From Candidatus Nanohaloarchaea archaeon (lineage in GTDB: Archaea > Nanohalarchaeota > Nanosalinia > Nanosalinales > JAHENU01), in assembly GCA_018609855.1 (NCBI GenBank), contig JAHENU010000053.1:1-12184 (forward strand): a stretch of 12,184 nucleotides of DNA. Reading direction: 5' to 3'. Made by a program: the position numbers and the translations under genes. Numbering within the stretch: the first letter of the stretch is position 1; every line of letters starts with the position of its first letter. Positions 597 to 11,549 of this stretch are shown here, in pieces. The notes beneath the pieces are model-generated. The model was not told the origin of the DNA, searched no databases, and was given only the letters and a program-made list of their open reading frames with translations.

Positions 597-767
597 TCAG
601 TCAATTTCTCCAGCGCCATCGCAATTAGGACAGCTATATTCACCTGGACCGTTGCATTTAGGGCAGTCCTGTAGTCCAGTGAGTAGGTCGCTTATCTGGC
701 CGTGTCCGTTACATTTATCACATCGAACAGTACCCTTCCCTTTGCACCGAGGGCATTTCTTCGCCAT
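597..767 (-). CDS. Small DnaJ-type zinc-finger protein (four CxxCxGxG repeats)
   Basis: This 56-residue protein consists almost entirely of four knuckles of the DnaJ central zinc-finger type: CPRCKGKG (residues 5-12), CDKCNGHG (16-23), CPKCNGPG (35-42) and CPNCDGAG (46-53). Eight cysteines in this order fit the two-zinc cysteine-rich domain of DnaJ/Hsp40 proteins. There is no J domain or substrate-binding domain, so it is a stand-alone module. The ATG at 765-767 is preceded by a strong GGAGGTG ribosome-binding site. It lies 205 bases downstream of the last large operon gene on the same strand, so it may be co-transcribed. In DnaJ this domain aids unfolded-protein binding and disulfide chemistry; similar isolated modules occur in small bacterial proteins of unknown function. 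By inference it may be an adaptor, matching the zinc-ribbon habit of the cluster. The open frame and motif spacing are clear; the role is not known. Confidence 0.8.
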   Translation of the reverse strand: MAKKCPRCKGKGTVRCDKCNGHGQISDLLTGLQDCPKCNGPGEYSCPNCDGAGEID

Positions 768-972: not shown

Positions 973-2346
973 CTAGCTTTGGAATTCCACTTCCAGACTT
1001 TGGATCCAATAATGGGTACAGAGGTCACCAGCTGTAATTCGGATCACGGTTCTCTCACCGATTCTCCCAGAGACATCCCAACTGTCGGTCGTGAAATCGC
1101 GAGCAGGCGGTGCGTAATTCCTAACGACCGTCGAATTACCTGCACTGGACTGTATCTCAATCGTCACGGGGGAATAGCCACCATTAGGGCAATCCGAGTA
1201 ATGCGATGACAGATGCTGTATGCGAAGTATAGCGTTGGCAGGTGTCCTGTCAAAGCTGATCGTGACCTTCAACATCGCTCCAGGAGCGAGTAATCGCAGA
1301 CTACTTTCATAAGGAGGGTTCCGATCCCAATTACCCTCAGCAGACCAACTCACTATGTTGCGCTCGATCGCTGCACCCTCTGGGAATGGCGAAAAGTCGA
1401 CCGAGGCGGAGTCTGCCCCTGCAGTTGCCGATGCAGTATTTGCTGAACCGAAAGGCAGGATGATCAACACAATACTTACCGCGAATGGTGTAAGACTGAG
1501 TTTTAGTAAAGTACTTACTCTTGTTTGCACGTTGATTCCCTGTTTGGTCAAATAATCGACAATATGGCCTTGGAGTAGGCGTGCTGCAATGTTTGTAACC
1601 ACCACCATCAATCCACATAGCATAAATATCGTACCTAATGCATCTGCTGTATAATTGTCGATGGATTCTATGATTGCTAAAATAATACTAACTCCTGCTG
1701 TCAGTACGAAACCGAAGACTATATTCTGCCAAGATATCTCATAGCCCCTATCCCATGGCAACGTATCGAAAGCAGTCAGCATCAACGCCAGTGTAGGACA
1801 CGTGAATAACACAATAAGAAACTCTGTTGCAATTCGGCCGCTCACTAGCCAAGAAGCAACGAATCCTATCGTCAGGGCTACGACCTCGGCTATTTTCGCC
1901 ATTTTACCAAAATCCTCCACTACCAACTCATTTTGATGAGTCTGAACTTTGACCGGTATTACAATCTCCTGGGTTAATGACGGCATATCTAGCCTTATAT
2001 TTGTATCATAGGCGGTCCCCCACTGTAAGCCATTGGTATTGAGCGAAATAGACAGGTAGCTTACGTTTTCGTTGATGTAAGCAGGAGTTACTGTCAACAA
2101 ACTTGGATTATCAATTGACAGACTGCCTTCTAATCCTCCTGGACCGTTGTTTTGGATCACCATTTCTTGAGTAACTGAGCCACTGTTCGGTGTGACATTA
2201 TGGAATTGTGGCTGTGGATCCCATTCTATTCGCGAGGGAATAATTGAGGATGAAGCCTTACTTTGATCAAGTATCTGGCCATCAGACCAGCAGTAACGGG
2301 CATTATCGGGGTTTGCAGAGCCACAACTCGAGCAATATTGAGCCAT
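973..2346 (-). CDS. Zinc-ribbon / beta-sandwich polytopic membrane protein
   Basis: This protein of about 457 residues carries an N-terminal degenerate zinc ribbon (CSSCG, NPDNARYC, then W-S-D-G, so the fourth ligand is Asp rather than Cys). Next comes a beta-rich segment at about residues 40-135 that resembles the Ig-like sandwich of BACON/ASH-type domains. About five membrane segments follow between residues 150 and 300. A C-terminal domain (about 325-457) is rich in short strands and resembles a jelly-roll or carbohydrate-binding fold; it has two cysteines that could form a disulfide. With the ribbon in the cytosol, an odd number of helices puts the C-terminal domain outside. The ATG at 2346 is preferred over an in-frame TTG two codons earlier, although the Shine-Dalgarno match is weak; with the kinase stop only 18 bases upstream, coupling is likely. 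It shares the NPDNAR-aromatic-C ribbon and the sandwich with the protein at 5744-6604. It may be a membrane sensor or anchor; the function is not recognised. Confidence 0.85.
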   Translation of the reverse strand: MAQYCSSCGSANPDNARYCWSDGQILDQSKASSSIIPSRIEWDPQPQFHNVTPNSGSVTQEMVIQNNGPGGLEGSLSIDNPSLLTVTPAYINENVSYLSISLNTNGLQWGTAYDTNIRLDMPSLTQEIVIPVKVQTHQNELVVEDFGKMAKIAEVVALTIGFVASWLVSGRIATEFLIVLFTCPTLALMLTAFDTLPWDRGYEISWQNIVFGFVLTAGVSIILAIIESIDNYTADALGTIFMLCGLMVVVTNIAARLLQGHIVDYLTKQGINVQTRVSTLLKLSLTPFAVSIVLIILPFGSANTASATAGADSASVDFSPFPEGAAIERNIVSWSAEGNWDRNPPYESSLRLLAPGAMLKVTISFDRTPANAILRIQHLSSHYSDCPNGGYSPVTIEIQSSAGNSTVVRNYAPPARDFTTDSWDVSGRIGERTVIRITAGDLCTHYWIQSLEVEFQS

Positions 2347-2364
2347 AAACAACCATTACATTAT

Positions 2365-3498
2365 CTACTGTTTGAGCAACTGCCCACATTGAATACAATA
2401 TTGCGCAGTGATAGGCATATAGTTTTGGCAAGTAGGATTTGGACATGTAACCGCTGAGGAAACCAGTGGAGCCCCACATTTTTCACAATATGGAATACCG
2501 TATTGATTATTATGTCCGCATTTTGGGTTAAGACACATTAGTTCCTTCGTTACTTGTCTATTTTCTAGATCTTCCTTCATTTCAGCTGCGGAGGTATAAC
2601 GATCATCAGGGTCTTCAGAAAGATTTATGCGTATGATTTCTTCCAACCATTGTGGAATGGCATGATTAAGACTACGTACAGGCGGGGATTCAGAGCCTTT
2701 AGGCGGTGTATGGGTTAGTAGGTAAAACATTGTGGCCGCTAGCGAGAAGAGATCTGAGCGCGGTTCAGATTTACCCTGTCGTTGCTCAGGAGCGGCATAT
2801 CCGCTCGTGCCAAGCCCTGTATCGCGTTCCCCCGTTGCTAAAGGGTCAACTTCACGCACACCACCGAAGTCGACCATCACCAAACGTGAACCTGAAAGTA
2901 TCAGATTTTCTGCTTTTAGGTCACGGTGTATAATAGGAGGGTTACTCAAGTGAAGATAGTTCAGAACTTCACAAATTTGAATTGCCCATTCTATAACGTT
3001 GTTATACTGCAATGGTTGACCATCGTGTACAACCTTATCATGCAGAGTTTTACCTTTTATGTATTCTAAGGCAATATGGTATGAACCATTTTCCACAAAA
3101 TACTCATAGTACTTAGGCACAATACGTAGATGTTGCAACGCATTGAGCGTCTCCGCTTCCCTTTCAAAGAGTTCTACGCGTTTTTCAAATCGATCGGACG
3201 TTGGGAGTAGCCGTTTTATAGCAACGGATCTGTTTTCGTTAAGATTGGTGGCTTGATAGACGGCAGCAAACCCTCCAGTAGCTATGTGGGCCTCTATTTG
3301 GTATTGCCCTTTCAGTAAGGGAGGAAGGGGTAGACAACAAGACTTGCAGAAGGTGCTTCCTGCAGGACTTGCTCGCTGGCATATCGGGCAGATTTCAACA
3401 TTACCAGTCCTGCGTTTCACCTGTTGTATTAGAACACCACACTCACCGCAGTGGGAAGCATTACGCGCTAAGCTAGAACCACATTCAGGACACCGCAT
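2365..3498 (-). CDS. Soluble Ser/Thr protein kinase flanked by zinc ribbons
   Basis: This is a Hanks-type Ser/Thr kinase of about 377 residues. Two CxxC-pair zinc ribbons come first (Cys 3, 6, 17, 20 and 37, 40, 51, 54), then the kinase domain (about 65-310), then two C-terminal ribbons (Cys 322, 327, 338, 341 and 352, 357, 368, 371). All catalytic elements are present: glycine loop ATGGFAAVY, VAIK lysine at about 95, HRDLKAEN with Asp 193, DFG at about 210, and APEQ. No membrane segment or PASTA domain is present, unlike PknB-type receptors. I chose the ATG at 3498 because GGGAGG sits just upstream, whereas a GTG 15 codons earlier has none and would add residues unrelated to the ribbon. It lies between the FHA protein and a membrane protein, and is the obvious writer of phospho-Thr for the FHA domains of the cluster (inference). 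The ribbons probably mediate protein contacts. Confidence 0.95.
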   Translation of the reverse strand: MRCPECGSSLARNASHCGECGVLIQQVKRRTGNVEICPICQRASPAGSTFCKSCCLPLPPLLKGQYQIEAHIATGGFAAVYQATNLNENRSVAIKRLLPTSDRFEKRVELFEREAETLNALQHLRIVPKYYEYFVENGSYHIALEYIKGKTLHDKVVHDGQPLQYNNVIEWAIQICEVLNYLHLSNPPIIHRDLKAENLILSGSRLVMVDFGGVREVDPLATGERDTGLGTSGYAAPEQRQGKSEPRSDLFSLAATMFYLLTHTPPKGSESPPVRSLNHAIPQWLEEIIRINLSEDPDDRYTSAAEMKEDLENRQVTKELMCLNPKCGHNNQYGIPYCEKCGAPLVSSAVTCPNPTCQNYMPITAQYCIQCGQLLKQ

Positions 3499-3567
3499 AA
3501 TGCCTCCCTGGCTTGAAACTGCATGTGCTTCTTGTTGGAGCACCCATGGTAGATCATACCCTGGAGA

Positions 3568-4116
3568 TCAAGCAGTTTCCCGGGTGAGCTTGAGGTAGAT
3601 ATTCGCTAGTGTAATTACGTCTCCTGCTGTAAGCGTACGCCATTCATCTTGCTCAAGAGGTCCTTCTCGATTGATGAAAGTGCCATTGGTACTACCAACA
3701 TCCATTACGGAGCAGACACCCTCCTCTACCTTAATATCGGCATGGCGTCGTGACACCTTGGGCTTATCGGGATCTTGCTCTTGATCGTTCAAGTCAATGT
3801 CAACAGGACCTCCTTTATCTGGATCTGGACGACCTATGGTTTGCACACCTTCGAATAAAGGGAACTCCTTACCAAGTTCTTTCCCTCTAGTGACGACTAA
3901 CTTAAGCGTTCCTTCATGAACAGGGGATGCCTCAGGAGCTTCTGGAGTCTCCGTTGCTTCCCCAGCCACTTCAGGTTCAGGTGGTTCTTCAGGTGTCATA
4001 GCAACTTGCTCCTCGCCTTCAGGTTCTGGCTCAGTGTCTTCAAGTAGATAGCCGCAATCGTTACACTGAAGCACCCCTGCCTCGTTATCGACTCCGCATT
4101 GGGGACATTTGATCAT
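3568..4116 (-). CDS. Zinc-ribbon FHA-domain protein
   Basis: This 182-residue protein has an N-terminal zinc ribbon (Cys 4, 7, 18, 21), an acidic Pro/Glu/Thr-rich linker (about 27-66) and a C-terminal FHA domain (about 70-180). The FHA pocket is canonical: GR at 95-96, SRRH at 122-125 and GSTNGTF from 141, the residues that bind phospho-Thr peptides. The ATG at 4116 is preferred over a GTG two codons earlier because AAGGAAGG is then spaced seven bases upstream. The layout, a flexible Thr-containing N-terminal arm before an FHA domain, recalls GarA/OdhI regulators, which a kinase phosphorylates on the arm so that it binds its own FHA domain; the ETP motif in the linker could serve that way, but this is inference. 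It sits between the VWA protein and the kinase, as expected for a phospho-reader in the same pathway. Confidence 0.93.
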   Translation of the reverse strand: MIKCPQCGVDNEAGVLQCNDCGYLLEDTEPEPEGEEQVAMTPEEPPEPEVAGEATETPEAPEASPVHEGTLKLVVTRGKELGKEFPLFEGVQTIGRPDPDKGGPVDIDLNDQEQDPDKPKVSRRHADIKVEEGVCSVMDVGSTNGTFINREGPLEQDEWRTLTAGDVITLANIYLKLTRETA

Positions 4117-4148
4117 TGTCACACCTTCCTTCAGAGAAACTTAACTAC

Positions 4149-5423
4149 TTACTCCTCCTCATCTGAGAGAAAGCCGGTTTGCCGTCCAACATCAGCTAAG
4201 GACAACTGTGTCTCTCTGGATACGTTCCCTAACTGAGTTTCTTTGATCGCTTGGTCAAGAGTCGTTTTCAGTTTTTCATCACCTAACTTTGTAGCGATTG
4301 CTTCAGCATTTTGAAGTAGTCTCGTAGCACGAGCCTTGTCTGGCTCGTGTTCAGCCTTTTTGACCACTTCATTCACCATCAACCGATCCACATATCGTGC
4401 AACTTCAGAATTGACGTAAGTTTGTGATTTATCATTCGTGTAATTCACAGATACATCGATGAGAGCGGTAGATTCTTCCTGTAGACCGGCCGATGGTACA
4501 TCATAAACCAGCTCTAGTTGTCCGATCAGGTAGTCTCCCGGAGATCGTGGCGGCAAACTGAGGTCTAATAGCACGTAGCGTGGGCTATCTTTTTCCATCG
4601 AACCTAGCGTGATTCGTGCGAGTCGATCTTCCGTTTCAAGCGCCAGTTCGGCGGCCTCGGGTTCTGCTTGCTGCGCCTTTTTGACCTTCACCCCTTTGAA
4701 TAAGTGCATCTTGAGAGTGACGTTGCTGTACGCTTTTGCCAATAACGTCCCGAATTCTTGTTCGAATATGGGCTGTGCACCTCCATCTGGATCCTGTGGA
4801 TCCTCCATGTAGTACCAGCTACCATGGCCATAGTTTTCAGCGATCGCAGTGAGTAACTCTTTATTCCACTCTATACCTACACCTATGCACGAAAAGCTCA
4901 TTCCTTCGGTACCATGATCACGGGCAATCTTTTTGCACTCATCTGGACTCCGTGTTTCTCCGTCAGTCAATAGAATACAGCGGTTTATTCGCTCTGTACT
5001 CATATGCTTGCGCAATTCAGCAATTCCTGTGTCCATACCCTTATACATCTGGGTACCACCGCCCAGATCATGCTTGTCTATGCTCTCAATTTCATTCATG
5101 ATAGCCTCTTTGTTTTGTGCAGCCTGCGCTTCACATATGACCCCTGCATCATCCGAGAACGCAATAATTGATATGATATCGTCAGCTTCAACCATACCAA
5201 TGGCATGTTTGGCTGCTTCCTGGATATACCGTATCTTCTCTGTGCCATCGACGAAGTCATACATTGAGCCGCTGACATCCATGACCAATGAGACATTTAG
5301 CGCCATCCGCTGGACAGCCGAGTCAGCTGGTATGACCTTCACCAATAAATAATTGGCATAATTCTCATTTGTGACTAGAACGTGGTCCCTCATCAACTGT
5401 GTTTCGACATTGATTTGACTCAT
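4149..5423 (-). CDS. Cytosolic VWA-domain protein, TerY-like
   Basis: This 424-residue protein has no signal peptide or membrane segment. A short beta-rich N-terminal part leads into a VWA domain (about 41-235) with a complete metal-ion-dependent adhesion site: DVSGSM (Asp 49, Ser 51, Ser 53), Thr 124 in GGGTQ and Asp 154 in LTDGET. A beta-rich region (about 240-345) and a helical C-terminal tail follow. The ATG at 5423 has a strong AAAGGAGG site. The motif E-T-Q-L occurs three times, at Thr 8, Thr 396 and Thr 405, the last two in the tail, which suggests phospho-Thr sites for the neighbouring kinase and FHA protein (inference). VWA proteins encoded next to a kinase and a PP2C phosphatase are known from the TerY-phosphorylation triad of stress-response loci, so a scaffold role binding metal and partners is likely. 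The exact family is uncertain. Confidence 0.9.
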   Translation of the reverse strand: MSQINVETQLMRDHVLVTNENYANYLLVKVIPADSAVQRMALNVSLVMDVSGSMYDFVDGTEKIRYIQEAAKHAIGMVEADDIISIIAFSDDAGVICEAQAAQNKEAIMNEIESIDKHDLGGGTQMYKGMDTGIAELRKHMSTERINRCILLTDGETRSPDECKKIARDHGTEGMSFSCIGVGIEWNKELLTAIAENYGHGSWYYMEDPQDPDGGAQPIFEQEFGTLLAKAYSNVTLKMHLFKGVKVKKAQQAEPEAAELALETEDRLARITLGSMEKDSPRYVLLDLSLPPRSPGDYLIGQLELVYDVPSAGLQEESTALIDVSVNYTNDKSQTYVNSEVARYVDRLMVNEVVKKAEHEPDKARATRLLQNAEAIATKLGDEKLKTTLDQAIKETQLGNVSRETQLSLADVGRQTGFLSDEEE

Positions 5424-5441
5424 TTTTGTTCCTCCTTTCAG

Positions 5442-5729
5442 TTACAACAAATCACCTAAGAACACAACGAATGCTATCCCTAGAACAGCCATCAGGCCCC
5501 AAAGCAGCCACCTTGCTTGCTCGTTGCGACCAATTCTCCTCAATCCAATTGATAGCCCAATTGACCCTCCTGTAACAGCTCCGAAGAAGAAATGTCCAAG
5601 TAGCGGGCTTCCTCCAATTGGAAGCATCATCCAATCAACAAACATAATGGGAAGAAGGGATATAAGAGCTGACAGAGTGACTGCAGCAGCTATTGCAAAT
5701 GCGAATAGAAATAGATATAAGATCCACAT
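5442..5729 (-). CDS. Small three-helix membrane protein
   Basis: This 95-residue protein is almost wholly hydrophobic, with three likely membrane segments (about 3-31, 43-62 and 73-93). A short basic loop (RRIGRNEQAR) lies between the last two. The second segment contains glycine-rich packing motifs (GAVTGGSIGLSIG) like those in the N-terminal part of the FHA/VWA membrane protein encoded upstream, which hints at helix packing between the two. The start ATG at 5729 follows a purine-rich GAGAGGG site 14 bases after the previous stop, so the gene is part of the operon. I do not recognise a family. It probably acts as a membrane partner in the complex; that is inference from context only. Confidence 0.8.
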   Translation of the reverse strand: MWILYLFLFAFAIAAAVTLSALISLLPIMFVDWMMLPIGGSPLLGHFFFGAVTGGSIGLSIGLRRIGRNEQARWLLWGLMAVLGIAFVVFLGDLL

Positions 5730-5743
5730 AACCCTCTCTCACC

Positions 5744-6604
5744 CTAATCGTTAAAGTACACATGATATATGTAGGCGCCACAGCCCGTTAACACGATTGA
5801 CACAGCTGCAAAATAAAGGGGGAGACCTGTATTGAAAACGAAGTCAAAGTCGCTTGACCTTACTAACCAGTTTCTAGATTCTGGCACCATCATCACGGGA
5901 ATTCCTCGAATTATGAGCATAAGCGTCGCTCCAAGGAGCGCGAACAAGGCAGTCGGCTCAAGTACTTGACCTATAGGTGCACTGACATAATAACTTAATG
6001 AAACCTTGCTGCCCCCACCATGCGATTGGATTGTCAGTTCCTCTCGATACTGCTTCTGGCCATGAAGGGCTTCAGTGTCTATCGTGACTGCAATCATTAT
6101 TGATTCACCACATTGAAGCCCGAACTCTCTAACGGATAGAGAAGCCCCCGGAGCCTTGCAGTTGATGGTGCCTTTAAGAAACCCTCGCGTAGCATTCTGA
6201 ACCTCAAAGCTCAACGTCAGACTTCGGCCTTGTTCAATTGAGCCGAAGTCCAGACTGGTTGCCGACACATAAGGCTCTGGCACTGGTGCTCCCAATGCTT
6301 CCGTAAAGTACTCGAGCCCTTCATCTTTATTGGATGTACTGTCTACTATGTCCTCTGCCTTTGCTGCTAGATCTAACCAGCCCATATTGCTGAGGGAAGT
6401 TATCAAGCGCTCCGAATAGAGATGCACTTTAGCCTCCTCCCAATTTTCGTCTATCAGATTTAGCAATTCCTGCTCGCTAGATGCTGATCCAGACCCCAGG
6501 CTAAGGGTCGTGGGGCGCGTTGATGAATCTAACGGTTCCCCATCGTTGTAGCAAAAGCGCGCATTATCCGGATTTATGGTTCCGCACTTGCACTTGACAC
6601 CCAT
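5744..6604 (-). CDS. Zinc-ribbon / helical / beta-sandwich membrane protein
   Basis: This 286-residue protein starts with a degenerate zinc ribbon (CKCG, NPDNARFC, Y-N-D-G; the fourth ligand is Asp). A helical segment follows at about 45-107 (NWEEAKVHLYSERLITSL to DEGLEYFTEAL), of a type seen in linkers of bacterial kinase-associated signalling proteins. Next is an Ig-like sandwich at about 113-210 (SLDFGSIEQGRSLTLSF onward), similar to ASH/BACON modules, and two C-terminal membrane helices (about 219-240 and 258-281). The ATG at 6604 lies two bases after the stop of the phosphatase gene, with AGGA upstream, so the two are probably translationally coupled. With both helices at the end, the ribbon, helical part and sandwich should all face the cytosol. 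It shares ribbon and sandwich with the protein at 973-2346 and may be a membrane anchor for the phosphatase or kinase; no named family is recognised. Confidence 0.85.
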   Translation of the reverse strand: MGVKCKCGTINPDNARFCYNDGEPLDSSTRPTTLSLGSGSASSEQELLNLIDENWEEAKVHLYSERLITSLSNMGWLDLAAKAEDIVDSTSNKDEGLEYFTEALGAPVPEPYVSATSLDFGSIEQGRSLTLSFEVQNATRGFLKGTINCKAPGASLSVREFGLQCGESIMIAVTIDTEALHGQKQYREELTIQSHGGGSKVSLSYYVSAPIGQVLEPTALFALLGATLMLIIRGIPVMMVPESRNWLVRSSDFDFVFNTGLPLYFAAVSIVLTGCGAYIYHVYFND

Positions 6605-6606
6605 TG

Positions 6607-8439
6607 TTAATTTCCTGCCTCTACGATGACTGCAGTTATGTTGTCGCCCCCGCCCCCCGCATTTGCTAAATTGACCAACGTATCACAGGCTTCCTGGGGG
6701 GGGGAGTTCTTCAAAACAACTCCCTCAATGGTTTCCATTTCTGCATAGTCTGTTAGACCATCTGAACAAAGCAGTAGCGTATCTCCCTTGTCAATTTGGA
6801 AAGAGAATATATCAGGTTCAACACTACGTTTTATCCCTATTGCTTTCTCTAGCATGTTAGTTGATTTTTTAACGTGGTCTTCTGTCTTTTGGTAGCATAC
6901 ACCTTCTGTAAAGAGGTATAAACGACTATCTCCAATGTGACCTACATACACGTCCCACCCGATCACTACAGCTACAGTGATAGTACAACCCATCTTTCCA
7001 ACTGGAAGCCCCAACGTGTGCTGCGCATGGGCGTTAACTTGCTCATTCGCTGTCTTGATGGCATTGCCGATCTCAGGAATAATATTGTCTTCATAGCTAT
7101 CTGAAACCACATTCTCGGTCAGTATTGGCGAGAGGGTGTTGCTGATTATTTGTACTGCAATTTGGCTTGCAATCTCGCCAGCCATAGCGCCCCCCACGCC
7201 ATCTGAAACAATGAAAATGCCATTGTTAGATTGGCCATCTTCATTCCCCGCTGAGGCAACTTGGATCCAATAACTATCTTCATTATTTTCTCTACTTGCT
7301 CCAACATTAGTTCTTCCACCAGCAATCAAGGTGGGAATCCTCAGTTCTTTCTTCAATTCTAGGATTTCCTCCTGTAATTCTTGAGAAGGAAGCTTCCCTT
7401 CATTCATGATTTCACCGGACTTAGCACACCTTTGCTCCATATCGCGATTAAAGACCTGTAGTAATATTCTGTTGATCTCCGGATGGAGATTAGGTTGTAT
7501 ATCGGTCGGAAGCTTAGGCAGGAAAGGACCTTCAAAATCTTCATCCTTGAGAGGCCTTTCAAGTAGGAGCGACAACCACGTCGCCCCCAGAGAATATAGA
7601 TCTGCCCTTATATCAGCCATGTCGGGAGTCAGAATGAGTTCAGGGGCAGTATAATAGTTATCTTCGGCTTCATAGTCCTCTGATAATGGCAGCTTCATTG
7701 CCCATCCGAACTCGCTCAAGGCCAAACGTTCATCTTCGGAGACAACTAACAGATCGGGATGAATCCCGTTGTAGAGTATTCCAGCAGTGTGAAGTTTGGA
7801 TAACGCCTGGCAGAGTTGGATCAGCCAATCGAACTGCTGTATCCGATCAGTTTCTTCCGCTTGCCAAGCTTCTCTTAGCGTCCAGCCATCGACATACTCT
7901 TCAACCAGGTAGCTTCGGTCTTCGACCACGAAACGATCCAAAGCGTTGATAATCGTCGGATACTGCACCTCTTCAAGAAGGAGATATTCTAGCTCTAATC
8001 GCGGATTAGGACGGTATACTTCAATATCCTGTTCAAAACCCTCTTCAAGAAGCTGGGTAGGACGCGCCGCAGAAAAATCAGTTTGTATTCCCTGCTTCTG
8101 ACGAAGTGAGCGCGATAAAGAGTCCTCGCGAAGCGAAGATATCCTGCCTTCAGAATCATGTACCGCTGGACCCTCTTTGATTACTACATTATGCTCCTCA
8201 TCCAGGTCAAAAGCTATGTATTTATTAATACTTGAATAGTTAGTCGATACTACTTGTCTGATTTCATATTTATCAGTTAAAAGCTTTCCTATTTCCAACG
8301 GTGGGAGTTGTGATTCTGTTATACCTGAACCTTGCCATCCACAATCAAAACAGATACCATTTTCAGTAAGCTGCCTATTACAATTGGGACATAGTATCGG
8401 GTAATAGTTTTCCTTTGCCGTATTATTTTCTCCAAACAT
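6607..8439 (-). CDS. Zinc-ribbon pseudokinase fused to PP2C phosphatase
   Basis: This 610-residue protein has three parts. A zinc ribbon comes first (Cys 17, 20, 30, 33). A kinase-like domain follows (about 52-345) that keeps the VVIK lysine (Lys 88), a TAPE motif and the overall fold, but where HRDxKxxN is expected it reads YNGIHPDLL (223-231) and DFG is EFG (243-245). The catalytic Asp is missing, so it is probably a pseudokinase. A PP2C Ser/Thr phosphatase domain (about 373-608) has all metal-binding motifs: RENNEDS (Asp 388), SDGVGG (Asp 413), GHIGDSR (Asp 504), LCSDGLTD (Asp 560) and GGGDNIT (Asp 599). No membrane segment is present. It should remove phosphate from targets of the kinase at 2365-3498, with the pseudokinase part perhaps recognising or sensing. 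The ATG at 8439 follows an AAGGG site. A run of nine C residues in the coding strand (6696-6704) lies before the last catalytic Asp and could slip. Confidence 0.95.
   Translation of the reverse strand: MFGENNTAKENYYPILCPNCNRQLTENGICFDCGWQGSGITESQLPPLEIGKLLTDKYEIRQVVSTNYSSINKYIAFDLDEEHNVVIKEGPAVHDSEGRISSLREDSLSRSLRQKQGIQTDFSAARPTQLLEEGFEQDIEVYRPNPRLELEYLLLEEVQYPTIINALDRFVVEDRSYLVEEYVDGWTLREAWQAEETDRIQQFDWLIQLCQALSKLHTAGILYNGIHPDLLVVSEDERLALSEFGWAMKLPLSEDYEAEDNYYTAPELILTPDMADIRADLYSLGATWLSLLLERPLKDEDFEGPFLPKLPTDIQPNLHPEINRILLQVFNRDMEQRCAKSGEIMNEGKLPSQELQEEILELKKELRIPTLIAGGRTNVGASRENNEDSYWIQVASAGNEDGQSNNGIFIVSDGVGGAMAGEIASQIAVQIISNTLSPILTENVVSDSYEDNIIPEIGNAIKTANEQVNAHAQHTLGLPVGKMGCTITVAVVIGWDVYVGHIGDSRLYLFTEGVCYQKTEDHVKKSTNMLEKAIGIKRSVEPDIFSFQIDKGDTLLLCSDGLTDYAEMETIEGVVLKNSPPQEACDTLVNLANAGGGGDNITAVIVEAGN
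6696..6704. repeat. Nine-base homopolymer in the PP2C coding region
   Basis: Nine consecutive G on the plus strand are C9 in the coding strand, covering Ser-Pro-Pro-Gln of the phosphatase domain. The reading frame is intact here. Gain or loss of a base would truncate the protein before GGGDNIT, removing the last metal-binding Asp. Such tracts are prone to replication slippage and to sequencing error. Confidence 0.6.
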
Positions 8440-8442
8440 TGG

Positions 8443-8517
8443 TTAACCCTTATTTACTTTCACAGACCAACACTCGCCTTCCAATTCATGGCCTGTAGGA
8501 TCGAATCGTTTACTCAG
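8443..8517 (-). other. Possible small ORF or C-terminal extension between FHA/VWA and phosphatase genes
   Basis: In a frame different from the FHA/VWA stop at 8514-8516, 24 sense codons run to a TAA at 8443-8445, three bases before the phosphatase ATG. The translation (ending ECWSVKVNKG) looks like an ordinary protein C-terminus, and the spacing fits the tight operon better than the otherwise 74-base gap. There is no ATG, GTG or ribosome-binding site at its head (CTG at 8517). It is either chance or the true C-terminus of the upstream gene after a second frameshift. Confidence 0.25.
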
Positions 8518-9323
8518 CGCTGCCTGTCTCTGAATTCTATGTGCTTCGAGTCACTGAGGTGGAATTTCACGTCTCCAAACCGCACAGTCGATCCAAGCTT
8601 AAGAGCATTCTTGCTGATTTTCCTTTCTTTCGCCGGCTCGCCGCTATAGCTTACAAATGTACCAGTCTCACTATCGAGATCCTCTACGATATATCTGCCT
8701 CTGTCCCACCATATGCGAGCATGCCTTCTAGCTATTGATGGCAGGTCAATGACGAGATCATTGTTAGGAGCAGCCCCTATGGTTAGCGTCCCTTCCGGAA
8801 GTCGCGCACGCTTGGGGGAAACGGAATTGCTCTCTGCTACCAAGTAATGGCGTTCAGCAAGCGGCCAGATGCTGCCCAATTGCTTCACGAGCGAACCGGC
8901 TTTGAATTTGATCTTCCAACCTGCTCGGTAGATATCTTGTTCACTTACGTCATATCGCTCAGCCAAGCGGGGCGCAGAAGCCAAGAAGGCCAATGGCACC
9001 AACAACAGCAAGAAAAGGCCAATATTAGAGGCCGGCACGAGGACACCTGGCACATAGTACGAATTGGCACCTGTCTTTTCCTCACTTGATCCTTCCACAC
9101 TCGCTACGACGCTGCGTGACGTTCCATCCATCACCTGATGAGGAGATCGGTAAATGAACTTATAGCTGGACTGCAGTCGAATCGATAGCTTCTTATACAA
9201 TGCGACTAACTGATCTGCAGAAGGAGCATAGAAGTAACTCCCACCTGATTTTTCTGCGATATGTGACAGTGCTTGTTCGTAAATACCACTTGCAGATGAT
9301 GTTTTTTGTGCTCTGTTGCCCAA
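8514..9323 (-). CDS. C-terminal half of split FHA/VWA membrane protein (rest of VWA, TM, FHA)
   Basis: This 269-codon open segment begins at a TTG with no ribosome-binding site. In the same frame, coding sense extends upstream to about 9349 (GIPIYSIGLG, the typical late VWA strand), so it is the continuation of the ORF at 9326-10864 after a one-base frameshift. It contains the last part of the VWA domain (to about residue 55), a linker, one membrane helix (about 97-117) and a C-terminal FHA-like domain (about 178-260). The FHA pocket is degenerate: the GR position reads GA, SRRH reads ARRH, and GSTNGT reads SETGT. If the TM order is right, the VWA part is outside the cell and this FHA part inside. 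It may be a true mutation, a sequencing error or regulated recoding. Confidence 0.8.
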   Translation of the reverse strand: MGNRAQKTSSASGIYEQALSHIAEKSGGSYFYAPSADQLVALYKKLSIRLQSSYKFIYRSPHQVMDGTSRSVVASVEGSSEEKTGANSYYVPGVLVPASNIGLFLLLLVPLAFLASAPRLAERYDVSEQDIYRAGWKIKFKAGSLVKQLGSIWPLAERHYLVAESNSVSPKRARLPEGTLTIGAAPNNDLVIDLPSIARRHARIWWDRGRYIVEDLDSETGTFVSYSGEPAKERKISKNALKLGSTVRFGDVKFHLSDSKHIEFRDRQR

Positions 9324-9325
9324 GC

Positions 9326-10864
9326 CTATCGAATATATCGGAATACCGATTTTTTAGAAAATGAAATTACATCATCTAAAGATTTCAAACTTTTATTGTC
9401 CATCCCATCTGTTAGAGCGATGACAGCTTTTCTCCCTTCAATAGATTTTAGCATCTCTAGAGCTTTATTGACAGCATCATAATACGCAGTCTTACCCCCC
9501 ACTTCGAGGGATTGGATTTCCTCGACAAGGATACCTTTATTAGCAGTAAAATCTTGTAAGATGCGAACTTGATCATCAAAAATAACAATTCCTGTTTTAT
9601 CCGTAGCCTTCGTTTGCCTTACAAATGCAATTGCAGCTTTCTTTAACCCGCTGATCTTCCCCGCTTTCCTCATGCTTCCACTCCGATCCAGGACCAACAC
9701 AGCGGTCATTGGTTGTGGGTCGCGAGGACCAACGAATTCAAGCACTTCTACTGAAGCACCGTTCTCGGTCAGTGTAAAATGGGATTGCGATAGAGTCTTG
9801 ACAGGCTGCTTCTGCGCATCCAGGACATCGATGTATGCGGTAATAGATGGAAAGTCTGATTTATCGACTTGGCTCACGTGGACCTCTGAAACAGACTGTC
9901 CAAAACCAGCCAAAGAGATACTGCAGAGGATTACCGTTAGCAAAAGTAGCTGTTTCCTGAATTGACCAATAAATTCTTTTAACTTTTTCGAAGAGTCTAT
10001 CCTATCCTTATTTGCTTGTGATGTTCTTTCCCTAAATAGCAACACTGTATCGCCTACTTGGATTCTGTCGTGATTATTGAGTACCTGAGCTCCGTTCACC
10101 GATGCGCCATTCACTAGAGTTGGAGCTTCCATCACCCGATTGTGCAGCACGTATTGCTGGCTCTTAGAATAGAGGTCAGCATGTTTTCTCGCTATCTTGT
10201 TATCTCCGAATAGTGCAATATCACACCGTTCATCTTTACCAACCACGCTAGAACTTTTCGAAAGCGTGAACTCCTTGCCCTCTTGCCGGCCACGGACCAC
10301 TTTGACCCACGCTTCGCGCAGCACTTCCTCAACAGTTCCGATGAGAGTCCCAATCGAAGCACCTAAAATGATGAGGCCAAGTGCTTGGCTGAAGGTATAG
10401 CTCCCAAAGACAAGCCTGAAGATTTCGAAAATTGCTCCCCCTAGGAAGCCGCCTATTGCGCCGCCGATCACGCCATATGTAATCTTTTTGGAAGCTTTAG
10501 TAGAAATGCCTTCGCTAACGCCGACCGCCAGTCCCAAAAACATCCATCCCAAAGCTCTGCCGAGAATTCCACCGCCAAAGCCCCATAAGACAAGCTCTCC
10601 AATAAGTAGCCCTAACGCTCCGCCTATAAAGCCGTACCCAGCCCCGTAAAGAGCACCTCTATACAGTCTTCGCATAGCTTGATCAAATACACCATCAATA
10701 GACCCGATCAAACTCCCAATAAATATACCAATAGTGGCTCCAGCAATGGCGTCTTGAACTATGATATTTCCTATAATGCCTATTTGACCAAGGACAAACC
10801 AGCCAATTAAGCCACCAGTTGCCCCGAATATAGCATTATAATAGATCCTCAGTCTTTGGCTCAT
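9326..10864 (-). CDS. N-terminal half of split membrane protein (glycine-rich TM, FHA, TM, VWA)
   Basis: The ATG at 10864 (512 codons to the stop) is preferred over a GTG two codons earlier because GGGAGG lies five bases upstream of the ATG. Residues about 8-180 form several glycine-rich membrane segments (IGGAIGGFLGG-like packing). An FHA-like domain follows (about 188-278), then a membrane helix (about 305-323), then a VWA domain with a complete metal site: DRSGSM (Asp 393), Thr 459 in GGKTAYYD and Asp 486 in LTDGMD. The frame closes at 9326 just after FSKK, at an A6 run (9350-9355 on the plus strand, as T6). One extra A there would continue as KIGIPIYSIGLG into the ORF at 8514-9323, giving about 783 residues. 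The FHA pocket is altered: GK for GR and ARKH for SRRH. The VWA domain probably faces outside, since the preceding helix resembles an uncleaved signal anchor. The gene starts 10 bases after the previous stop. Confidence 0.88.
   Translation of the reverse strand: MSQRLRIYYNAIFGATGGLIGWFVLGQIGIIGNIIVQDAIAGATIGIFIGSLIGSIDGVFDQAMRRLYRGALYGAGYGFIGGALGLLIGELVLWGFGGGILGRALGWMFLGLAVGVSEGISTKASKKITYGVIGGAIGGFLGGAIFEIFRLVFGSYTFSQALGLIILGASIGTLIGTVEEVLREAWVKVVRGRQEGKEFTLSKSSSVVGKDERCDIALFGDNKIARKHADLYSKSQQYVLHNRVMEAPTLVNGASVNGAQVLNNHDRIQVGDTVLLFRERTSQANKDRIDSSKKLKEFIGQFRKQLLLLTVILCSISLAGFGQSVSEVHVSQVDKSDFPSITAYIDVLDAQKQPVKTLSQSHFTLTENGASVEVLEFVGPRDPQPMTAVLVLDRSGSMRKAGKISGLKKAAIAFVRQTKATDKTGIVIFDDQVRILQDFTANKGILVEEIQSLEVGGKTAYYDAVNKALEMLKSIEGRKAVIALTDGMDNKSLKSLDDVISFSKKSVFRYIR
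9350..9355 (-). other. Apparent one-base frameshift at an A6 run
   Basis: The coding strand reads TCT AAA AAA TCG at the point where the VWA domain leaves one frame and continues in another. Adding one A, or a -1 ribosomal slip on AAA AAA, gives Ser-Lys-Lys-Ile-Gly-Ile-Pro-Ile-Tyr and restores one long protein. The heptamer T AAA AAA is not the best -1 slippery site, and the run is short for transcriptional slippage, so a real mutation or a sequence error is as likely. Confidence 0.75.
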
Positions 10865-10874
10865 GCCCACCTCC

Positions 10875-11288
10875 CTACGGAAGCGGTGTTTTCTTAAACA
10901 ATCTCAGGAGCCGTAACAATGCTTTAGCTGGCAACTTCAATATATCATAGAAAAAGTTCGAAATGACCCTCTGAAGAAATAGCGTGCCTTTGCCTGGCCC
11001 AAAGGTGAGTCGCATTAACCCTGTCATATAGAACAGCAGTATCATAATGAACAGGGGAAGTTGATAGAGTAGATCCGCCGACGGATTTTGAATCGAGTAA
11101 TTCAGATAATCCCAGACATGGATAAAAGCATACGCACCAACACCGAGAAACAGTATGAAAAGTACTGATTTTGAGACGAATTGTAAGGACCTGACTGGTC
11201 CAAAAATCATGACGCCAATCCCCAGAACAATAAACGCTAGCTGTAGCAGAAGTGATACTGATTCCTCCATGAATATCCCCCAGCTCAT
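10875..11288 (-). CDS. Three-helix membrane protein of unknown family
   Basis: This 137-residue protein has likely membrane segments at about 9-30, 37-58 and 74-96. A basic, amphipathic C-terminal tail follows (about 100-137, rich in Leu, Lys, Arg), which should lie in the cytosol or on the membrane surface. The ATG at 11288 has a modest AGGA site; a second in-frame ATG six codons later is preceded by GGGGGA and could also be used. It starts 60 bases after the stop of the RHH gene, and its own stop is 10 bases before the FHA/VWA gene, so it is part of the operon. No family is recognised; its position suggests a membrane partner of the FHA/VWA protein. Confidence 0.82.
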   Translation of the reverse strand: MSWGIFMEESVSLLLQLAFIVLGIGVMIFGPVRSLQFVSKSVLFILFLGVGAYAFIHVWDYLNYSIQNPSADLLYQLPLFIMILLFYMTGLMRLTFGPGKGTLFLQRVISNFFYDILKLPAKALLRLLRLFKKTPLP

Positions 11289-11348
11289 TCGTCCTGTACC
11301 CGTATTTATAACAGGTACCTCAAATATTCCTAGAATTGCCTTTGGAAA

Positions 11349-11549
11349 CTAACCTTCCTTCCTTTCCAAATATGCAGTGACAGCTATGTCGATCATTTCA
11401 GAGAGAGACTTCCCATGACCAAGCTCGATTAACTTCCTCAAGCGTTTCTTTCGCTCAGGACTACCAGCATACAGCGTTACTCTTCCATATCTGTCCAATT
11501 CCTTCGGGATTCTCTCTCTATTGTTGTTTGCAGCTTCTTCTTCGTGCAT
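11349..11549 (-). CDS. Ribbon-helix-helix type small protein, likely operon regulator
   Basis: This 66-residue protein has a charged N-terminal arm, a strand-like GRVTLYAG (about 22-29), a first helix PERKKRLRKLIELG (about 31-44) and a second helix SLSEMIDIAVTAYLERK (about 48-64). This is the order and length of a ribbon-helix-helix DNA-binding domain (CopG/Arc/MetJ class). Such proteins bind DNA as dimers through the paired strands, usually at short repeats near their own promoters. The ATG at 11549 has an excellent GAGGAGG site. It is the first gene of the minus-strand cluster, and inverted and direct repeats lie just upstream, so autoregulation of the operon is a reasonable inference. No toxin partner of the usual RHH-antitoxin kind is visible next to it. 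The strand assignment is by eye. Confidence 0.75.
   Translation of the reverse strand: MHEEEAANNNRERIPKELDRYGRVTLYAGSPERKKRLRKLIELGHGKSLSEMIDIAVTAYLERKEG

Follow-up and report, generated by a model that had tools for sequence, protein, structure and literature searches.

The contig JAHENU010000053.1 (NCBI GenBank assembly GCA_018609855.1), which is assigned to a Candidatus Nanohaloarchaea archaeon, carries on its minus strand an operon (positions 973-11549) that we consider likely to encode a bacterial phosphothreonine switch of the ArnA-ArnB type, coupled to the membrane. The whole stretch analysed, of 12,184 nucleotides, is referred to as the window. In archaea, the ArnA-ArnB switch has been studied in motility and in the DNA-damage response; its VWA partner has the Sec23/Sec24 core fold. 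Our reading is built on the gene content, the recurrence of a four-gene core, homology with ArnA and ArnB, a conserved threonine tail, the kinase and phosphatase motifs, the pseudokinase state of one protein and several gene fusions. In the open reading frame listing, the operon comprises eleven frames with 2-74 bases between neighbours, probably representing ten genes, two of the frames being halves of one broken gene. The frames are given below in the order of transcription, from g11 to g1; domains were assigned with Pfam and NCBIfam, and transmembrane (TM) helices were counted with a hydropathy script.

11349..11549, minus strand: g11, 66-amino-acid ribbon-helix-helix (CopG-like) protein with which the operon begins (Pfam RHH_1, a weak match at E 0.012 and under the cut-off)
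10875..11288, minus strand: g10, 137-amino-acid membrane protein with three predicted TM helices (no Pfam family)
9326..10870, minus strand: g9, N-terminal part of the broken gene, with about five glycine-rich TM helices, a degenerate FHA domain, a TM helix and the start of a VWA domain (Pfam/NCBIfam, hydropathy)
8514..9323, minus strand: g8, C-terminal part of the broken gene, with the end of the VWA domain, a TM helix and a second degenerate FHA domain, cytosolic (Pfam/NCBIfam, hydropathy)
6607..8439, minus strand: g7, fusion of a zinc ribbon, a pseudokinase and PP2C, the predicted eraser (Pfam, NCBIfam, AlphaFold2)
5744..6604, minus strand: g6, zinc ribbon, helical region, HYDIN-type immunoglobulin (Ig) domain and two TM helices (Pfam, hydropathy)
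5442..5729, minus strand: g5, 95-amino-acid membrane protein with two predicted TM helices (no Pfam family)
4149..5423, minus strand: g4, cytosolic ArnB-type protein with a beta-sandwich, a VWA domain with a metal ion-dependent adhesion site (MIDAS) and a C-terminal helical bundle
4152..4232, minus strand: threonine tail at the C-terminus of g4, from about residue 398 to residue 424, where phosphorylation and FHA docking are predicted
3568..4122, minus strand: g3, ArnA-type protein with a zinc ribbon, a flexible linker and an FHA domain, the predicted reader
2365..3543, minus strand: g2, Ser/Thr kinase that has the active-site motifs and zinc ribbons at both ends, the predicted writer
973..2352, minus strand: g1, zinc ribbon, beta-rich region, five predicted TM helices and a C-terminal domain predicted outside

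Pfam support was strong for the kinase, FHA, VWA and PP2C domains; the Pfam matches of the zinc ribbons were above the cut-off in g2 and below it in g1, g3 and g6. The original prediction for this DNA had described about ten adjacent minus-strand genes with short gaps, and its coordinates and gene content held. Its gene count includes the broken gene g9/g8; the PP2C gene proved to be a fusion and the VWA protein at 4149-5423 a three-domain protein of the ArnB type. The four membrane proteins that it counted became five by hydropathy, with g9/g8 included. A role of g11 as a transcriptional regulator is possible.

The VWA, FHA, kinase and PP2C genes recur together on plasmids. We searched plasmids with tblastn, covering the best 40 of 267 records for g7 and 29 of 29 records for g4, and examined ten annotated regions and an eleventh from Trichormus 0441. 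The four genes stood together in seven of the ten regions, from Deinococcus wulumuqiensis, D. sp. QL22, D. radiodurans, Gloeothece verrucosa, Tolypothrix PCC 7712, Trichormus variabilis and Nostoc linckia, that is, in both Deinococcota and Cyanobacteriota. Of the ten plasmid records with the PP2C fusion close to the VWA gene (see below), three (Trichormus 0441, Tolypothrix 7601 and Microchaete) share their match scores with other records and resemble them in length; we took these as near-copies, which leaves seven distinct clusters. Using phmmer, homologues of g4, g3 and g7 were found in all seven, and that of g2 in six of the stretches and in the Trichormus 0441 record; in Trichormus ATCC 29413 the stretch, which ends at the start of the record, does not contain the kinase, and the plasmid of strain 0441, of equal length, does. 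The FHA gene of D. radiodurans is annotated as two frames. Eleven plasmid records covered at least 80% of g4, and the PP2C fusion lay within about 6 kb in 10 of them (two of the ten, Tolypothrix 7601 and Microchaete, by tblastn coordinates only), which argues against a chance arrangement: the operon is a real unit. The proposal of a single unit made up of writer, eraser, reader, VWA and membrane proteins is supported, and the four-gene core recurs in distant phyla; the full set of ten genes was not found elsewhere. Two further relatives, P0002 (g7, 58%) and P0122 (g4, 75%), probably lie on one contig, the longest contig being 10579 bases for both. Scans of viral contigs with VWA profiles gave no relative in one scan and one distant locus among the matches listed in the other.

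The surroundings of the plasmid clusters varied. In D. wulumuqiensis (L072), the quartet directly follows pprA and lexA and is followed by a second kinase fused to a beta-helix domain. The cyanobacterial clusters (L073, L074, L075 and L077) have extra genes upstream of the quartet, including those for ARC6-type IMS-domain proteins and, judged by eye, lipoprotein-like proteins.

The proteins g4 and g3 have the builds of ArnB and ArnA, respectively. Models and profile comparison gave g4 a split beta-sandwich, a VWA domain and a C-terminal helical bundle, and g3 has an N-terminal zinc ribbon, a linker and an FHA domain with the GR, SxxH and NG motifs. When profiles were compared with the PDB, that of the VWA proteins matched ArnB over nearly its full length, and the best match of the FHA proteins was archaeal ArnA. 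The threonine-rich C-terminus of the g4 family aligns with the C-terminus of ArnB. The Pfam scan at E 0.1 gave no ArnB_C row for g4, the presence of the ArnB_C model in the library being unchecked.

We counted threonines in the best 120 of the 1122 members of the VWA family, the window protein included. In the last 60 residues, 228 of 725 threonines follow two basic residues; elsewhere in the proteins, the figure is 4 of 2210. The tails of 114 of the 120 nearest members have one or more of these sites, and so do 23 of the 26 members left by a crude filter for redundancy. The tail of g4 itself has no threonine after two basic residues and has K/R-x-T sites instead. A relaxed pattern, defined after inspection, gave 3 to 5 hits in each of nine cluster VWA proteins (9/9) and 0 or 1 in all three non-cluster controls. 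In the model, the pLDDT of the last 11 residues of g4 was under 50. The tail is predicted to be a site of phosphorylation and FHA docking.

Some of the results weigh against the assignment to the ArnA-ArnB type. ArnB ranked second, not first, in the search with the VWA-protein profile, and the score of OdhI was close behind that of ArnA in the search with the FHA-protein profile. The Arg of the GR motif is missing in 4 of the 7 cluster FHA proteins (g3 keeps it); the four cyanobacterial soluble FHA proteins, which lack it, keep SxxH and NG. Finally, 3 of the 10 regions, from Cyanobacterium HL-69, Picosynechococcus 7002 and D. ficus, have a VWA homologue without the quartet, and no homologue of g2, g3 or g7 was found in their fetched stretches, nor, for D. 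ficus pDFI2, within 8 kb on either side of the VWA gene. A metabolic switch of the GarA/OdhI type, in which the linker of g3 would be phosphorylated, the FHA domain would turn to metabolic enzymes and the VWA protein would be a mere scaffold, was suggested by g3, which when compared on its own is closest to OdhI/GarA, and by a T-P pair in the linker that is invariant in the seven aligned cluster FHA proteins. However, the linker is of low complexity and the T-P column may be an effect of the alignment, and the zinc ribbon together with the adjoining VWA gene (in the window and in 7/7 plasmid clusters) fits ArnA-ArnB better; we regard this explanation as very unlikely. The seven cluster FHA proteins also share a GPVDIDL-type stretch that is absent from OdhI and may mark a subfamily. 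FraH is a cyanobacterial zinc-finger FHA protein.

The kinase and the phosphatase of the core could be characterized from their motifs. All 10 kinases examined have HRD (YRD in L055) and DFG, and 9 of them also show the lysine pattern that was looked for; g2 carries a C-terminal DZR domain at residues 340-387 in Pfam. The g7 protein has N-terminal CxxC pairs followed by a kinase-like domain without HRD and DFG and by PP2C. Both motifs were missing in all 14 g7-type proteins examined, on which ground we rejected a dual-activity kinase/phosphatase; the searched PP2C patterns were kept in the 14, except for one pattern each in L061 and L078. In a comparison with the AlphaFold2 model of g7 (pLDDT 87.7), PP2C structures matched first and the kinase PknB further down. 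Profile-profile alignment of g7 with its cyanobacterial and deinococcal partners extended over both parts (probability 100, E 7e-51), and the N-terminal part of the profile of these partners matched kinases (E about 6e-7). The model NF011149 / PRK14559, 'serine/threonine phosphatase', matches g7 at residues 146-607, including the kinase-like and PP2C parts, with 130 bits, far under its cut-off of 374 bits. A segment of about 18 residues, which is presumably the flap region, is absent from the PP2C domains of g7 and its closest relative P0002 and present in P0003-P0005. Bacterial PP2C proteins that carry zinc-ribbon and kinase domains have already been reported (PMC12088040). A defence system was also considered and rejected: among the best 25 of the 34 PADLOC rows for each of g2 and g7, almost all were kinase models (PD-T4-6, MAD6, MkoA), and these rows reflect the kinase domain rather than a defence system.

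Fusions and adjacencies in two Poribacteria-group genomes connect these genes further. In genome G028, the gene immediately after a zinc-ribbon/pseudokinase/PP2C gene on contig C893 encodes a zinc-ribbon kinase joined to a VWA domain that lacks the threonine tail (L055); contig C950 (L058) has two more fusions of a kinase with g6, one with a single predicted TM segment and one with none; and on contig C934 (L094) a g6-like zinc-ribbon/Ig/TM gene (E 2e-28) adjoins a VWA gene. In genome G044, contig C418 (L090) has a g4-type VWA gene with the tail (E 7e-68), followed by a gene for a single fusion protein with matches to both g2 (E 4e-47) and g6 (E 2e-16), in which four TM segments are predicted. 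Therefore, g2 is tied to g4, g7 and g6. Few genomes of this group encode full-length members of the VWA family (1 of 81 at E 1e-40). Beside a g7 homologue on a Poribacteria contig, a gene (L014:4199-5320) has an N-terminus that matches g6 (E 6e-9) and carries an FGE-sulfatase domain. A Poribacteria-group genome (L062) and a Desulfobacterales genome (L015) have operons that are related to this one but distinct from it, with genes for VWA-TM-FHA, kinase, PP2C and FHA proteins.

By analogy, the logic of the operon, read in this way, may resemble that of the PpkA-PppA-Fha pathway of type VI secretion (PMC10482370, PMC3953482, PMC3224232). An operon of this kind would gate an envelope or secretion machine encoded elsewhere. 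A membrane-associated kinase, PP2C, FHA and periplasmic input are common to both (PMC10482370), and PpkA has a C-terminal VWA domain (PMC1262709), as in the kinase-VWA fusion L055. Unlike in that pathway, the nearest structures of the VWA and FHA proteins belong to other families, namely those of ArnB and ArnA. No type VI secretion gene was recognised in the window, whose contig ends after 12 kb, and no secretion gene was recognised there or annotated in the seven plasmid stretches, where annotation is incomplete. We consider this alternative rather unlikely.

Besides the core, the operon encodes membrane proteins. The VWA domain is cut midway at the end of g9 and resumes in g8 in another frame (Pfam/NCBIfam), and hence g9 and g8 are the halves of one TM/FHA/VWA/TM/FHA gene; intact VWA-TM-FHA relatives are present in the related operons described above (L062:3782-5266 and L015:5293-7209). 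The frame change in 8514-10870 directly follows an A-run, and an assembly error, a real mutation and recoding all fit. The VWA domain of g9 is predicted outside and has a DxSxS sequence of the MIDAS type. Membrane proteins like g9 were detected with phmmer in 4/4 cyanobacterial clusters (E 9e-5 to 3e-17). In the alignment, the FHA domains of g9 and g8 lack the key phosphothreonine-binding residues that g3 keeps, and the four aligned cyanobacterial membrane FHA-like domains likewise lack them; SxxH and NG are, however, retained in the VWA-FHA proteins of L062 and L015, and the absence of these residues is therefore not general. We therefore rejected the g9/g8 domains as phosphothreonine readers: the FHA readers proposed originally are supported for the soluble g3, judging by its motifs, and probably not for the two membrane domains.

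A domain of 160 residues is predicted outside in g1. Three distant partial homologues of g1 were found among 7999 candidates scored and, judged by eye, only the C-terminal outside domain is common to them; one of them has, beside this domain, a repeat of PF00066, which we take to be Notch-like. Among the Poribacteria-group genomes, g1 had a match in 1 of 81, through the zinc ribbon only. A role of g1 as a sensor is possible, and g1 and g9/g8 may serve in sensing and anchoring.

In Sulfolobus acidocaldarius, ArnA-ArnB belongs to the archaellum regulatory network with the kinases ArnC and ArnD and the phosphatase PP2A; the kinase phosphorylates C-terminal threonines of ArnB, which are bound by the FHA domain of ArnA (PMC6509490, PMC12852372, PMC7472852). 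In the unphosphorylated state, the zinc finger holds ArnAB together, and threonines become exposed to the FHA domain upon phosphorylation by ArnC (PMC12852372); PP2A dissociates the complex (PMC7472852). The operon shares with this system a zinc-ribbon-linker-FHA protein, a beta-sandwich/VWA/helical-bundle protein with a threonine-rich C-terminus, and a dedicated kinase and phosphatase. It differs in that a PP2C joined to a pseudokinase takes the place of PP2A (the genome may still encode a PP2A elsewhere), the four genes form one operon, the kinase has zinc ribbons, membrane VWA/FHA and zinc-ribbon/Ig/TM proteins are present, and the system is very probably bacterial, with no archaellum shown. 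With this different phosphatase and no archaellum shown, the operon falls short of full membership in the Arn system. The earlier statement that it matches no named system thus applies to the operon as a whole, and not to its core, in which the FHA and VWA proteins match ArnA and ArnB. In the open-licence literature, as represented by titles, abstract openings and passages, no description of this operon as an ArnAB system was found.

We also compared the operon with the TerY-P triad, reportedly described by Anantharaman et al. in 2012. A triad of this kind would be a metal- or phage-responsive stress module of kinase, PP2C and VWA, to which FHA and membrane proteins were added. The core parts named in the original prediction (VWA, kinase and PP2C) are indeed present and zinc ribbons are many; the kinase zinc ribbons, which had been taken as a difference, are none, given that the TerY-P kinase is itself fused to a C-terminal zinc ribbon, as the DZR domain is in g2 (PMC11090510). 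On the other hand, g4 is a full-length three-domain protein of the ArnB type and not a bare VWA domain, and the operon has an FHA reader, a pseudokinase on PP2C and membrane parts. As had been noted before, there are no Ter proteins, at least in the NCBIfam and PADLOC rows of the window; the Pfam vWA-TerF-like match of g4 is under the cut-off; and among the best 120 of 1122 g4 homologues none is named TerY, most being unnamed. No ter or restriction gene was recognised in the 12 kb window, and the seven plasmid stretches were judged by incomplete annotation. A TerY-P-like module is unlikely in our view. Actinobacterial GAP1-N2 systems also combine a zinc-ribbon kinase, PP2C and a standalone VWA protein, but theirs are part of GTPase-centred conflict systems, and no FHA partner is named in the available passage (PMC7159879).

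The contig is binned with a genome of 679 kb (61% complete), and another contig of the bin encodes L7Ae, aIF5B and an archaeal pilin, which we recognised by eye and take to be archaeal proteins. An archaeal origin of the window was rejected: g7 was found in 0 of 27 other genomes of the group of the bin at E 1e-40, and its nearest named homologues are from Candidatus Poribacteria (39-45% identity). A tetranucleotide comparison with ten sampled contigs did not cleanly separate the window. The contig is very probably bacterial and misbinned. Within the window, no tRNA and no Rfam match at the gathering score was found. Downstream of the operon, 597-767 (minus strand) encodes a 56-amino-acid DnaJ-type CxxCxGxG zinc protein (Pfam DUF5351, above cut-off), and no gene was recognised before 597; the G+C content of positions 1-1000 is 55%, compared with 43-48% elsewhere. 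At the contig edge, 11906-12184 (minus strand) encodes a fragment of an integrase-core (rve_3) transposase, with a Pfam score just under the cut-off.

Taking the ArnA-ArnB-type switch as the preferred reading, we infer the following mechanism. The zinc-ribbon kinase g2 would be held at the membrane by g1 and g6, and would phosphorylate threonines in the C-terminal tail of g4. The reader g3 would be loosely bound to unphosphorylated g4 and, after phosphorylation, tightly bound via its FHA domain; the pseudokinase/PP2C fusion g7 would reverse the phosphorylation. The VWA domain outside and the degenerate FHA domains inside of g9/g8, together with the outside domain of g1, may link the switch to the envelope and to an external signal.

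Genes of the D. radiodurans cluster occur in published expression and proteome data. By matching names and gene order, we equated DRA0331-DRA0334 with the genes of L078. In a study of an oxyR mutant, DRA0331 (VWA), DRA0333 (zinc finger and FHA) and DRA0334 (PP2C) are among the 36 most induced genes (3.97-, 4.28- and 3.67-fold, respectively), the kinase DRA0332 is absent from that table of 36 genes, and DRA0334 is up 2.2-fold with H2O2 (p 0.06) (PMC2225504). In a heavy-ion proteome study, DR_A0332 is described as a kinase found only in bacteria (PMC10572868). In Saccharolobus, the ArnA-ArnB switch represses DNA-damage genes (PMC10470591). Our reading links the cluster induced in the oxyR mutant of D. 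radiodurans, which in D. wulumuqiensis stands beside pprA and lexA, to this repressing switch.

We give an even chance to the wider proposal that self-contained bacterial switch operons of the ArnA-ArnB type, with their own kinase and pseudokinase-guided PP2C, exist in at least Deinococcota, Cyanobacteriota and a relative of the Poribacteria group, and that the present one is wired to the envelope by its zinc-ribbon/Ig/TM and membrane VWA proteins. If this is true, the threonine tail would make many bacterial VWA proteins now named 'YfbK/Ca-activated chloride channel' phospho-switches, contradicting the current statement that such VWA proteins mostly escape control by multiple phosphorylation. 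It would also provide a specific phosphosite prediction for a large, little-studied VWA family and a role for the pseudokinase-PP2C fusion, and two laboratory bacteria, D. radiodurans (DRA0331-DRA0334) and Trichormus variabilis (plasmid), would offer a ready genetic system, with both partners, kinase and phosphatase in one operon.

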